From Bacteroidota bacterium (GTDB lineage Bacteria > Bacteroidota > Bacteroidia > Chitinophagales > Saprospiraceae): a stretch of 55,909 nt of DNA. The notes under the pieces were generated by a model. The model did no database searches. It saw only the letters and a list, made by a program, of their open reading frames with translations, and was not told the origin of the DNA. The position numbers were made by a program, and so were the translations under genes. This document shows positions 34,949 to 40,312 of the stretch, piece by piece. The stretch's first letter is position 1. Every line of letters starts with the position of its first letter. The stretch covers positions 1-55,909 of the forward strand of contig JAKOXM010000545.1 in assembly GCA_029781095.1 (NCBI GenBank), read 5' to 3'.

Positions 34949-37228
34949 TTATTGTTCGGGATTTTCTTCTACAAAGTACATATCCACGAGGCCCTTGTTG
35001 TACACCTCTTTTTTGCCGCGGTAGGTAACTTTGTAAAGATGCTTTACAGCTTCGGCCGTGGACCCCGATACGTTGACGCGACCACACTCGCCGAGTTCTT
35101 CAAGGCGTGCCGCGAGGTTGACGGCATCTCCCCAAATATCATATGCAAATTTGTTTTTTCCGATCACACCCGCTACGACGGGGCCTGTGTGGATGCCGAG
35201 CCGCATCTCGCGAAAAATGGCTTTAGGATTTGTTTTGTTGCGCTGCAGGAGCCAGGCTTCCATTTCAAGCGCGGCGCGTACGGCATCCACGGGGTGGGTT
35301 TCATTCGGAATAGGCAGCCCGCCGGCGCACATAAATGCATCACCGATGGTTTTAATCTTTTCAAGGCCGTTTTTATCGCATATTTCGTCGAAGGCAAGGA
35401 AGCACTCGTTCAATTCATCGATCAGTTCGTTCGGCGCCAGATGTTCGGACAAACGGGTAAAATTGATGAAGTCGGTGAAAAGGACGGTGGCCGATTCGTA
35501 ATGGCGCGGGGTGGCGTAGCCGTGTGCTTTTAACTCCTGGGCAATTTCTTCCGGCAAAATATTCAGCAGCAACTGATCGCTTTTACTTCGTTCTGCGGCG
35601 ATTTCTTCGTTTTGCTGCTGGATTTGCCGGTTTTTCAGATTCAGCCGGCTATTGGCCCGCCGGGTGTAGAGCCAGCCGGCCCCGAGCAGGGCCAAAATGA
35701 TAAAAAGCATGGAGCCGATGCCATACGCGAATTTCCGGAAGTTGGTTTCTTTTTCCGTTCGGTATTGCTGCTCGCGCTGTATTCGATCGAGTTCCTGGGC
35801 TCGGCTGGTACTGTCGGCCCGGCGCTGCGTTCGATCCAGTTCTTCCTGTCGTCGCAGATCGGCTATCACGTTGTTTTGTTTTTCCGCATTGTAGCGCTGG
35901 GCAGTCAGACGGAGTTCCTGCTCCGCCTGCAGGGCCTGCAGGGTCTTTTCCCGGAGTTGGGCCTGGTCTACCTCGTTTTTGGTCTGGAGCAGCAATACTT
36001 CGTCTTTTTTACGCTGCGTTTCGAGTGCGAGGTTTTTATTTGCCAGTTCGAGGCGCTCGCGTTCGAGGCGTATCTGATCGAAAGCGAGGTCGCGCACACT
36101 TTGCTGTGCGTACAGGTATTTGATTTGTCCTTCGGCCGCTGCGAGCAAGGTGCGTTGCTGATCGATTTGCTGCTGTCGCACCTGTTCCTGCAGGCGGATG
36201 GTGTCCAGTTCGGTCAGAAAATTGCGATAGGAATCGAAGGCTTTTTCAAAATCATACAACTCGTTGTACACCTTCGCTGCTGTTTCATAGGCGTCGGCAA
36301 GTACCTGCCGCTGTTTGGTCTGGCGGGCATATTTGATAGCCGAATCATTGTGGTTCAGCGCATTGTAATAGTCGTTGTTGCTATAATAAACGCCTGCGAT
36401 CAGGTGCTCAAGGCTGGCGAGCGCCGTCCAGTCGTGCCGGCCCAGCAGAATATCGCGCGACCGGAGCAGGTATTCGATACCGCGGCGCGAATCGCCGGTA
36501 TTGTGCAGGGCCACTCCGAGATTGGCGTACATCACTTCGGGGTAATCGCAGGGAATATAAACGCACTGGAGCTCGGCTTTGCGAAAATACTCCAGGGCTT
36601 TGGTGTAATCGCGATCGCGCACGTACTGGCGTCCGAGGTTATTGTATAGCAGCGATTTTTCCTGCGCCGTTCCGTAAGTCTCGATAATCCGTTCGATGGC
36701 CGTGTAATAGTAGATACTTTTACCCGTGTCGTTGCGCTGGTCGAAAGCATTGGCGAGTTTTTGATAAATCTGGACCAGCCGCGAGTTATTTCCTTCGTTT
36801 TTATATTTGATTATCAGGTTTTTATAATAAAACTCTGCACTGTCAAATCTCAGGTCATTGAGATAGGCGTCCGCAATTTTTTCCATGGCACCGAAATCCT
36901 CGGGATTCATCCCCAGCACCTCTCCATAGTAGCGGTATGCGTACGAATAAAGTTTTTCGTGGAGAAAAATGTCGCCCAAAGCGCGGTAAACGGTGAGCAA
37001 CTGATCCGTGCGGCCTCTGTTTTCAAGTTTGGCTTCCGCCAGCAGGTAATGCTGCAAAGCCTCTTCCGTTCTGTTTGCGCGCGCGCAGACATCGCCCAGT
37101 TGCATCGCTGCACGAATTATGCCTTCGTTGTACGATAGCGTCCGGGCCAGATTCAGGCCTTCTTTGGCCAGTTTTTCCCGCTCGGCATCCGTGCCTGCCT
37201 TCCCTGCCCGGTCCAACAAATCATCCAC
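34949..37228 (-). CDS. Class III adenylate/guanylate cyclase with N-terminal TPRs and TM; annotated start GTG, true start probably upstream
   Basis: TVLFTDFINFTRLSEHLAPNELIDELNECF...EKIKTIGDAFMCAGGLP...GIHTGPVVAGVIGKNKFAYDIWGDAVNLAARLEELGE; TPR-like N-terminus. In-frame codons upstream of 37228 encode a signal peptide. Confidence 0.92.
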   Translation of the reverse strand: MDDLLDRAGKAGTDAEREKLAKEGLNLARTLSYNEGIIRAAMQLGDVCARANRTEEALQHYLLAEAKLENRGRTDQLLTVYRALGDIFLHEKLYSYAYRYYGEVLGMNPEDFGAMEKIADAYLNDLRFDSAEFYYKNLIIKYKNEGNNSRLVQIYQKLANAFDQRNDTGKSIYYYTAIERIIETYGTAQEKSLLYNNLGRQYVRDRDYTKALEYFRKAELQCVYIPCDYPEVMYANLGVALHNTGDSRRGIEYLLRSRDILLGRHDWTALASLEHLIAGVYYSNNDYYNALNHNDSAIKYARQTKQRQVLADAYETAAKVYNELYDFEKAFDSYRNFLTELDTIRLQEQVRQQQIDQQRTLLAAAEGQIKYLYAQQSVRDLAFDQIRLERERLELANKNLALETQRKKDEVLLLQTKNEVDQAQLREKTLQALQAEQELRLTAQRYNAEKQNNVIADLRRQEELDRTQRRADSTSRAQELDRIQREQQYRTEKETNFRKFAYGIGSMLFIILALLGAGWLYTRRANSRLNLKNRQIQQQNEEIAAERSKSDQLLLNILPEEIAQELKAHGYATPRHYESATVLFTDFINFTRLSEHLAPNELIDELNECFLAFDEICDKNGLEKIKTIGDAFMCAGGLPIPNETHPVDAVRAALEMEAWLLQRNKTNPKAIFREMRLGIHTGPVVAGVIGKNKFAYDIWGDAVNLAARLEELGECGRVNVSGSTAEAVKHLYKVTYRGKKEVYNKGLVDMYFVEENPEQ

Positions 37229-37381
37229 CTCGACCGTATGCTGTTCGGGGGTATCTGCACGCTGGGCGTTGACCTGACTGAAAGCCAGTAGCAGGAGGGG
37301 TAATATGAAGGCGAGGCTTTTTATGTCGAATGATTTTTCACAAAAATAGATGTTTTTGTGAAACCGGGTACACGAGACAAT

Positions 37382-40312
37382 TTACTCGGTCCAAATCTCG
37401 TCGGCAAATATCCAGCAGGGGTTTCCGGCGCCTTTGTGCCATGAAGGGCACTTGCCCGGCGACACGCCGATAACGCGTACGTAACGCGCTTTTTGACCCT
37501 TCAGATCTATGACAAAATCTTTTTGCAATACGCCTTTCTCCGTTTGGGGAATGTCATTGAGCGATTCTCCCGCAAGCGTAAAATGTTGGCCATCATCCGA
37601 AATTTCCACCTGCAATTTGACCGGGAAAAATATCCACGAGTTTTCATCCTGCAAAAAACCCGCGCCCAACTTATTGATTTTCTGACTTTTGCCAAGGTCC
37701 AGCACCACGTCGAGGTTCACGCCTTCAAAGCCCTGCCAGTTGCCCGTTCGGAAATCGGCCCCGCCGCGCAGGCCGTCGATAAGGCCGTTGTCGCCATGGG
37801 CCGTGTATTGGGCGTTGTAGCGGGTGTTGTAATGGTCGACAGAGAGCGTAGACGTGTTTCGGGTAAAAACAAAAGTGTCCAACTTGCTGTGTTTGCCATA
37901 ACGTTCTGCAAAAAATGCGATTTTGCCGGAGCCGGTCACCGTGACCGGATGACTGTAGGTTACAGACTGTCCGGATTTGGCTTTTTCATCATTCAGGGTG
38001 TAATAAATCGTGGCATCTTTATCAGCACAACCCAGGGCAATGGTCTGTGATTCTTTGAAAACGCGGGCGCCCTGTGTTATAAAGGGTACGGGCGGCATGG
38101 GAAGTTTTTTTCCGCGATAGCAGAGTTGTAATTTTCCCCACCGGGCAGGCGAATCGGTCATATCGAAGTCGACTTCCCCGCCGCCGGTAATTTCTTCATG
38201 GCCGATCCAGCCTTCGTCGCGTATGCGGCCATTTACTTTCATGCTTTTTATATAAAAATTGCGGGCAGAGACGTCGGCGGCGCGTATGACGAATTTTTTC
38301 CCGGAATCGAGGTTCAAAGTGATTTTTTCAAAAAGCGGAGTGCCCACCGCATAATCCGGGCAGCCGGGCGTAACCGGATATATCCCCATGGCAGACATGA
38401 CAAACCACGCTGACATTTGCCCGCAATCCTCGTTGCCGGAAAGCCCGTCAGGCCGGTCGTGGTACATTTCGTCCATGATCTGCCTGACGCGTTGCTGCGT
38501 TTTCCACGCCTGGCCTGCGTAGTCGTAGAGGTAGGCGATGTGGTGGCTCGGTTCGTTGCCGTGCACATACTGCCCGATCAGCCCGGTGATATCGGCCTGG
38601 TTGCGGCCCGTCGTTCGGGAGGTGGCGCTGAAAAGGCTGTCCAGCTGGGCCGCAAACGCCTCGTCGCCGCCCATCAGATCGATGAGTCCCGGAATATTGT
38701 GCTGCACGGCGAAGCGATATTGCCAGGCGTTTGCCTCCGTGTAATTAAAATTCACCTCGTAGGGATCGAAGGGTTTGTTCCAGGTGGCGTTGCTTTTTGA
38801 GCGAAAAAAGCGGGTTTCGGGATCGAAAAGATTCAAATATGACCAGGATTTTGTCAAATACGGATCATCGACCGAATCCACCCCCACTGCGTCTTCCATT
38901 TGGGCGATGCACCAGTTGTCGAAGGCGTACTCCAGTGTTTTGGATACCGATTCCGACTCCTTGTCGGATGGAATGTAGCCGAGTTGCCTGTACCATTTGA
39001 GGCCGTAGCGGTCGCTGCCGGCGCTTTTATACATGGCTTCGAGCGCTTCTTTCGCATCATAATCGCGGATTCCCTTTACATAGGCGTCGGCAATAACGGG
39101 AATGGCGTGATTGCCGATCATGCAATCCGTCTCGTTGGCCGAGAGCTCCCACACAGGCAGCAGACCGCCCTGTTCGTACTGCCGTAGAAAGGTCTGGATA
39201 AAATCGTTCATGCGTTTCGGTTCCAGGATGGTGTAGAGCGGATCGCAGGCACGGTAGGTATCCCACAACGAAAAAACGGTGTACACGTCGTGGCCTTTGG
39301 CCTGGTGGATGTTGTTGTCGCGCCCCCGGTATTGTCCGTCCACGTCGTTCCAGATGTTCGGTACGATCATGGTGTGGTACAAGGCCGTATAAAAAATGGT
39401 TTTTTGCGCCCCGGTGCCGCCTTCCACTTCAATTTTGGAAAGTTCATGCTCCCATTTTGCCTGCGTTTCGGCCTTTATTTTATCAAAATCGAAGTGATTG
39501 CATTCCGCCTCCAGATTCTTGCGCGCACCTTCGATACTGACGCCGGAGATACCGACCGTGACTACCAGCGGCTCCCCGTCTTCATTAAAGTCGAGCAGCC
39601 CGACAATTGATTTGCCCGTCACAGAAGGGTTGGTTTCGCGGGGGTTAGCGGACATATCGAGTATTTTGGCGTTAAAAAACGGTTTTGAAAACCGCGCTAC
39701 GAAGTAGACGTGTTGCTCCTTTGCCCATGCTTTCGATATGCGATAACCTTCTATTTCGCGGTCGCTGACCCTTTTCATGTGCGAATCGAGCACTTGGTCG
39801 CGGTGGCGCAGGTCAACGAGCAGGTGCCCGCGAACGCGATTTTGTGGAAATGTATAGCGATGCACACCGACGCGCTCCGTTGCGGTCATTTCCGCCTTGA
39901 TGCGGTCTTTTTCGAGAAAAACGGAATAGTAGCCTGCCTGGGCTTTTTCTTTCGATTTTTTAAACGGGGAGGCGTATTTCTCCGGCTCCAGCTCCGCCCG
40001 CCCGGTGTAGGGCATGAACAAAATGTCGCAATAATCGGCTACGCCGGTACCGCTCAGGTGGGTGTGCGAAAAGCCGTACACCAGCGAATCGGAGTAGTGA
40101 TAACCCGAGCACCCGTCCCAGTCCATCATGTCGATGCGGGTATCGGGACTGAGCTGCACGAGCCCGAAAGGCGCCGTTGCGCCGGGGTAAGTATGGCCGT
40201 GGCCGCCCGTGCCGATGAACGGATCGACGAAAGGCAGGAGAGATTCCGGATTTTGGGCGAATGACTGATGCACAGAGACCAGGAGGGACAGGCAAAGCAG
40301 TAGACGGAGCAT
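37382..40312 (-). CDS. GH92-family alpha-mannosidase-like glycoside hydrolase
   Basis: MLRLLLCLSLLVSVHQSFAQ; VDPFIGTGGHGHTYPGATAPFGLVQLSPDTR; VYTVFSLWDTYRACDPLYTI; GNEDCGQMSAWFVMSAMGIYPVTPG. Track start at 40552 reads through repeats and is rejected. Confidence 0.93.
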   Translation of the reverse strand: MLRLLLCLSLLVSVHQSFAQNPESLLPFVDPFIGTGGHGHTYPGATAPFGLVQLSPDTRIDMMDWDGCSGYHYSDSLVYGFSHTHLSGTGVADYCDILFMPYTGRAELEPEKYASPFKKSKEKAQAGYYSVFLEKDRIKAEMTATERVGVHRYTFPQNRVRGHLLVDLRHRDQVLDSHMKRVSDREIEGYRISKAWAKEQHVYFVARFSKPFFNAKILDMSANPRETNPSVTGKSIVGLLDFNEDGEPLVVTVGISGVSIEGARKNLEAECNHFDFDKIKAETQAKWEHELSKIEVEGGTGAQKTIFYTALYHTMIVPNIWNDVDGQYRGRDNNIHQAKGHDVYTVFSLWDTYRACDPLYTILEPKRMNDFIQTFLRQYEQGGLLPVWELSANETDCMIGNHAIPVIADAYVKGIRDYDAKEALEAMYKSAGSDRYGLKWYRQLGYIPSDKESESVSKTLEYAFDNWCIAQMEDAVGVDSVDDPYLTKSWSYLNLFDPETRFFRSKSNATWNKPFDPYEVNFNYTEANAWQYRFAVQHNIPGLIDLMGGDEAFAAQLDSLFSATSRTTGRNQADITGLIGQYVHGNEPSHHIAYLYDYAGQAWKTQQRVRQIMDEMYHDRPDGLSGNEDCGQMSAWFVMSAMGIYPVTPGCPDYAVGTPLFEKITLNLDSGKKFVIRAADVSARNFYIKSMKVNGRIRDEGWIGHEEITGGGEVDFDMTDSPARWGKLQLCYRGKKLPMPPVPFITQGARVFKESQTIALGCADKDATIYYTLNDEKAKSGQSVTYSHPVTVTGSGKIAFFAERYGKHSKLDTFVFTRNTSTLSVDHYNTRYNAQYTAHGDNGLIDGLRGGADFRTGNWQGFEGVNLDVVLDLGKSQKINKLGAGFLQDENSWIFFPVKLQVEISDDGQHFTLAGESLNDIPQTEKGVLQKDFVIDLKGQKARYVRVIGVSPGKCPSWHKGAGNPCWIFADEIWTE

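Follow-up and report, generated by a model that had tools for sequence, protein, structure and literature searches.

A class III adenylate cyclase gene of one Saprospiraceae genus carries ATA, ATC or ATT (AUH) at the position where its orthologues carry ATG, GTG or TTG (NTG), and this aligned AUH recurs in 9/39 orthologues and three clades, more than expected by chance. One of the nine lies in the 55,909-nt stretch of Bacteroidota DNA analysed here (the window). From sequence comparison, we consider it probable that the AUH codon is the actual start of the cyclase, and we hold with the same confidence that the best explanation is AUH initiation without a Shine-Dalgarno sequence, acting as a conserved throttle on cAMP production. 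A sequence-only reading of the window had raised a rare non-canonical start at the ATA as one of several options; the comparison supports that option and widens it, as ATA, ATC and ATT align across all nine species with the signal peptide kept.

Reading frame and gene layout in the window

The cyclase gene occupies 34949..37324 of the minus strand (791 codons plus stop) and follows a GH92 glycosidase gene (PF07971, E=5.9e-181), whose TAA stop at 37384-37382 (minus strand) precedes the cyclase frame. After this stop the frame reads ATT GTC TCG TGT ACC CGG TTT CAC AAA AAC ATC TAT TTT TGT GAA AAA TCA TTC GAC, and from 37324 it continues ATA AAA AGC CTC GCC ... AAC GCC CAG. On direct reading, there is no ATG, GTG or TTG in the cyclase frame from the GH92 stop (37382-37384) to a GTG at 37228-37226, and the coordinates and codons given by the sequence-only reading for this interval are right. 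The proposed start codon, ATA at 37322..37324 (minus strand), where an initiator Met is presumed, opens the signal peptide IKSLAFILPLLLLAFSQVNA, which is followed by Q (37265..37324, minus strand). By eye and by hydropathy, IKSLAFILPLLLLAFSQVNAQ resembles a typical Bacteroidota signal peptide, and the claim that it is intact from the ATA onwards is borne out, with the frame reading through. The GTG picked by ORF callers (37226..37228, minus strand) would give a protein from which the signal peptide has been removed.

Upstream of the ATA by 16 nt lies TATTTTTG (37341..37348, minus strand), also present in the sister species G032; at every position it fits the Bacteroidota -7 promoter element TANNTTTG, whose consensus we took from PMC6847099. 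The last base of this promoter-like box is overlapped by an out-of-frame GTG (37339..37341, minus strand) that the sequence-only reading did not mention; it stands 17 nt upstream of the ATA, and its own ORF ends at TAA 37323-37321. This short ORF reads GTG AAA AAT CAT TCG ACA TAA, and its stop overlaps the ATA (ATAA). The stop of a TTG ORF likewise overlaps the start codon in the related species G022 (ATTAA), and the other AUH species are without such an overlap. No convincing tandem duplication or frameshift signals were found in the window leader. We also observed that Ile codon 7 of the cyclase (37304-37306 in the window) is ATA in nine species of the genus, although in the mature cyclase gene ATA makes up ∼13% of the codons for Ile.

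The encoded protein matches Guanylate_cyc (PF00211, E=1.8e-47) and TPR, and its PDB matches are adenylate/guanylate cyclases. The features of class III adenylate cyclases are present, namely two metal-binding Asp, the adenine-specifying Lys/Asp and the transition-state Asn and Arg; across the aligned rows the catalytic D, D, D, N and R are retained in 39-40/40 and the K in 38/40. The catalytic domain, which carries the Lys/Asp substrate residues of adenylate cyclases and the metal-binding Asp, spans residues 607-786 (34967..35506, minus strand), and a predicted transmembrane segment FAYGIGSMLFIILALLGAGWLY lies at 35666..35731 (minus strand). From this order of parts, the protein would consist of a signal peptide, a TPR region predicted to lie outside the inner membrane, a single membrane helix and a cytoplasmic class III catalytic domain, and we read the gene product as an exported-sensor adenylate cyclase with predicted cAMP synthesis. 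The gene is under purifying selection, with dN/dS of about 0.02-0.08: for the mature part, the values are ∼0.07 for G009/G007, 0.015 for G025/G033, 0.06 for G006/G031 and 0.07 for the window species G000 with G032, where the estimate is saturated. The AUH cyclases are therefore working genes.

Start codons across the genus

The cyclase search took in 42 genomes of the genus, 40 of which gave a strong match and 39 a readable 5′ end. All 39 orthologues have a signal peptide, of conserved type and position. By our assignment, the start codons of these 39 are ATG in 7, GTG in 12, TTG in 9, GTG or ATG in 2 and ATA, ATC or ATT in 9, the last being ATA in the window, ATC in G032, G009, G007, G031, G025 and G033, and ATT in G022 and G006. 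The AUH codon sits 20 (or 19) residues before the cleavage-site Q, at the position of the ATG in G019, G002 and G036, of the GTG in G020 and G030, and of the TTG in G013, and the residue after it is mostly K, R or N.

In a maximum-likelihood tree of the mature protein only, which is unrooted, the AUH species form three groups: {G000, G032, G022, G009, G007} with support 100/100, {G006, G031} with support 100/97 inside a TTG group, and {G025, G033} with support 100/100. Since the neighbours of the AUH clades are NTG, three independent gains are the simplest reading, with the limit that an unrooted tree alone cannot separate gain from loss. All five species of the first clade have AUH, with A, C, T, C and C as the third base and never G.

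This distribution bears on whether the ATA of the window is real. It could be a miscalled or recently mutated ATG, or the tract GTGAAAAATC could be short of one A, in which case the GTG at 37341-37339, now one base out of frame, would be joined to the cyclase frame and become the start, giving MKKSFDIKSLAF.... The window comes from a MAG broken into 830 contigs (completeness 95.3%, contamination 6.6%), which would suit an error of either kind, and because one extra A in the A5 tract would restore the GTG start, the window taken alone is less certain than its relatives. We nevertheless judge these two versions, taken jointly, to be unlikely: the sister and cousin species have ATC or ATT at the aligned place, which a single G-to-A change cannot explain, and the GTG overlaps the end of TATTTTTG and thus lies upstream of the expected transcript start. 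As a general explanation assembly error is rejected, since A, C and T are all found as third base among MAGs that are independent of one another; the suspicion of such an error in the sequence-only reading accordingly fails for the set of species and survives, as an improbable option, for the base in the window MAG.

That reading had also raised the option that the start was mutated with loss of export, and had set against the signal peptide an orthologue family starting uniformly at the GTG 37228 without one. Loss of export is not supported, and the orthologues do not follow that pattern: the signal peptide is intact across the five-species clade, the 39 aligned N-termini all have it, and the four nearest relatives read GCN where the fallback GTG stands in the window. 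A start at this GTG or at another internal codon, yielding a protein without a signal peptide, is the choice of a standard ORF caller, and a GTG at EVD does occur in the window and in many other orthologues. Given the GCN codons of the nearest relatives, and a signal-peptide type and frame that are conserved genus-wide, also where the start is ATG, we regard this as very improbable.

A further objection to the AUH start is that M, V, L and I could vary as a hydrophobic residue within a longer N-terminus. Against this, an upstream start is absent in five to seven species. Specifically, 7/9 AUH orthologues, spread over three clades, have no in-frame ATG, GTG or TTG 15-45 codons before the cleavage-site Q, while the other two have in-frame alternatives of their own that count against the AUH start there: G032 has a TTG 8 codons upstream, and G009 offers both ATG and TTG. 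In G007, a close relative of G009, a one-base indel located 18-20 nt ahead of the ATC breaks the frame of the single upstream ATG that G009 has in frame. This argument carries less weight than it seems to, since each of the two genomes was assembled into few contigs, perhaps from long reads, which could have left indel errors. For G006, the 75 nt preceding the ATT contain no NTG in any of the frames. G031 has two ATGs as its sole upstream NTGs, and both ORFs terminate >50 nt short of the start. G025 and G033 each have a stop in frame, five codons ahead of their ATC. In these four species, a small indel near the start therefore cannot rescue a standard start.

The same upstream sequences speak to a distant start reached by ribosomal frameshifting, transcriptional slippage or stop readthrough. 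The out-of-frame GTG and the A5 tract upstream in the window would fit such an event, as would the overlap of a TAA with the start codon in the window and in G022. The AUH species, however, have no upstream start, slippery site or peptide in common, and G006 lacks any NTG from which a frameshifted product could begin within 75 nt; we give this explanation almost no credence and retain initiation at AUH.

Control surveys

A control survey of 400 kb from G009 and 400 kb from G022 yielded 59 and 64 signal-peptide-like ORFs, chosen by ORF length and hydropathy, as a codon-bias gene finder was too insensitive. After inspection, none of the 123 ORFs in these 800 kb was without a usable NTG, and ATG was the start in 48/59 and 54/64, respectively. 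Each apparent NTG-less hit was read, and proved to have a usable start or to be an internal hydrophobic segment. The comparison of 7/39 with 0/123 gives P=3e-5 if species are treated as independent, which they are not; counted fairly, the recurrence amounts to three clades.

The closest paralogue, at 30 loci in the same genus, likewise gave no clear NTG-less case. Its starts are mostly ATG and otherwise GTG or TTG, apart from one locus truncated at the 5′ end and another that was ambiguous, and in the window genome three signal-peptide-bearing paralogues start with ATG. The gene for IF3, infC, was considered as a second AUH gene of the genus and rejected, having a TTG start; in nearly all genus loci read it begins with TTG (MAFKP...), and not with AUU or ATG.

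Leader structure, predicted promoter and repeats

None of the nine AUH species has an AGGAG-like Shine-Dalgarno motif in the 30 nt before the AUH codon. This is as expected, since the host phylum is Bacteroidota, which do not use Shine-Dalgarno sequences (PMC6847099). The leaders of the first two AUH clades are almost unstructured, with folding of the -20..+30 region at 0 to -1.5 kcal/mol versus a mean of -5.8 for NTG orthologues, and across all species AUH and NTG differ with a Mann-Whitney P=4e-4, without correction for relatedness. The exception is the pair G025/G033, at about -4.5 kcal/mol, where the structured leader is a point against the AUH start. In Flavobacterium johnsoniae, transcripts begin 4-5 nt past the -7 element (PMC6847099), and with this spacing the position of TATTTTTG places the predicted transcript start of the window gene downstream of the GTG at 37341. 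On this prediction, roughly a dozen bases of leader would precede the ATA in the transcript.

In G022, G006 and G031, 7-bp tandem repeats make up the leader and extend as far as the start codon. Intergenic 7-bp arrays (e.g. ATCATTC, CAATCCC and GATTGCG) number 25 in 400 kb of G022; none was found in the window, nor, N runs apart, in 400 kb of G009. A possible route to AUH is thus that repeat turnover erased an NTG and left ATC or ATT in an unstructured leader. Taken further, AUH would be used but would have arisen by drift, the repeats having overwritten the old start and AUH being good enough in such a leader. The heptads that run up to the start codon in three species and the abundance of arrays in G022 agree with this. 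It leaves aside the window, G032, G025 and G033, which have no clear heptads, and it does not sit well with the persistence of AUH over long branches while one mutation away from AUG, or with the strong over-representation of GTG and TTG in the same cyclase family. We therefore see drift as a possible but rather doubtful account, and continue with a selected throttle.

Discussion

Under the proposed mechanism, translation would begin at the AUA at 37322-37324, with the initiator tRNA reading it as methionine. The cyclase family would have been selected for weak starts, GUG and UUG being common, AUG a minority and AUH present in three lineages, and the effect would be low, possibly IF3-tunable, synthesis of the enzyme that produces cAMP. 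Whether lower expression is the selected effect of AUH seems to us evenly balanced. The fullest version of the proposal is that AUA, AUC and AUU evolved repeatedly in a Shine-Dalgarno-independent phylum, that the cyclase is made at a very low level, possibly under IF3 control, and that an unstructured leader compensates in two of the three lineages; we advance it tentatively, and as a whole rate it slightly below an even chance. Control of the cyclase start by IF3 is suggested by precedent, as a possibility.

AUH starts are already known; repeated AUH gain on an adenylate cyclase is apparently new, as the literature searched describes no AUH start that evolved repeatedly, whether on such a gene or in Bacteroidota. 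Non-standard starts of this kind are invisible to gene callers, and an annotation that omits the signal peptide consequently mislocalises the cyclase. Within a single genus of a phylum that makes no use of Shine-Dalgarno sequences, AUH seems to have arisen three or more times in this one gene family. The natural series of ATG, GTG, TTG, ATC, ATT and ATA in a single gene lets one ask how Bacteroidota ribosomes choose their starts, and bears on whether initiation acts as a throttle on cAMP synthesis here as it does in E. coli.

We read the AUH codon as a real start and a throttle because the cyclase family favours weak starts throughout, the weakest being those of the three AUH lineages, and because of precedents, namely the UUG of E. 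coli cya, the AUU and AUA starts of Staphylococcus aureus and the GTC of sigR. According to Reddy et al. 1985, as cited in PMC5622118, E. coli cya starts with UUG, and changing it to GUG or AUG raises expression. In both cases a weak start would restrain an adenylate cyclase; the E. coli enzyme, however, is class I with UUG, whereas the enzyme here is class III with AUH and its throttle is proposed from comparison. For infC, the start is AUU in E. coli, ATC in Streptomyces and AUA in S. aureus, and E. coli pcnB starts with AUU (PMC5472188, PMC13009471). These genes share a conserved AUH start with the cyclase, but their function is another, and the non-canonical starts of S. aureus are tied to an extended Shine-Dalgarno sequence that is absent in the Saprospiraceae cyclase. 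The GTC start of Streptomyces sigR, repressed by IF3 (PMC5472188), is likewise a non-canonical start conserved across a genus on a regulatory gene, though it combines GTC with a strong RBS, in contrast to the AUH of the cyclase with no Shine-Dalgarno sequence and several independent origins. Finally, ccpN (AUA) and cvfC1 (AUU) of S. aureus, with about 10% of AUG activity (PMC13009471), resemble the cyclase in having AUA and AUU starts conserved within a genus; they differ in belonging to Firmicutes, in carrying an extended Shine-Dalgarno sequence and in having been measured by Ribo-seq, while the cyclase start is proposed from sequence comparison.
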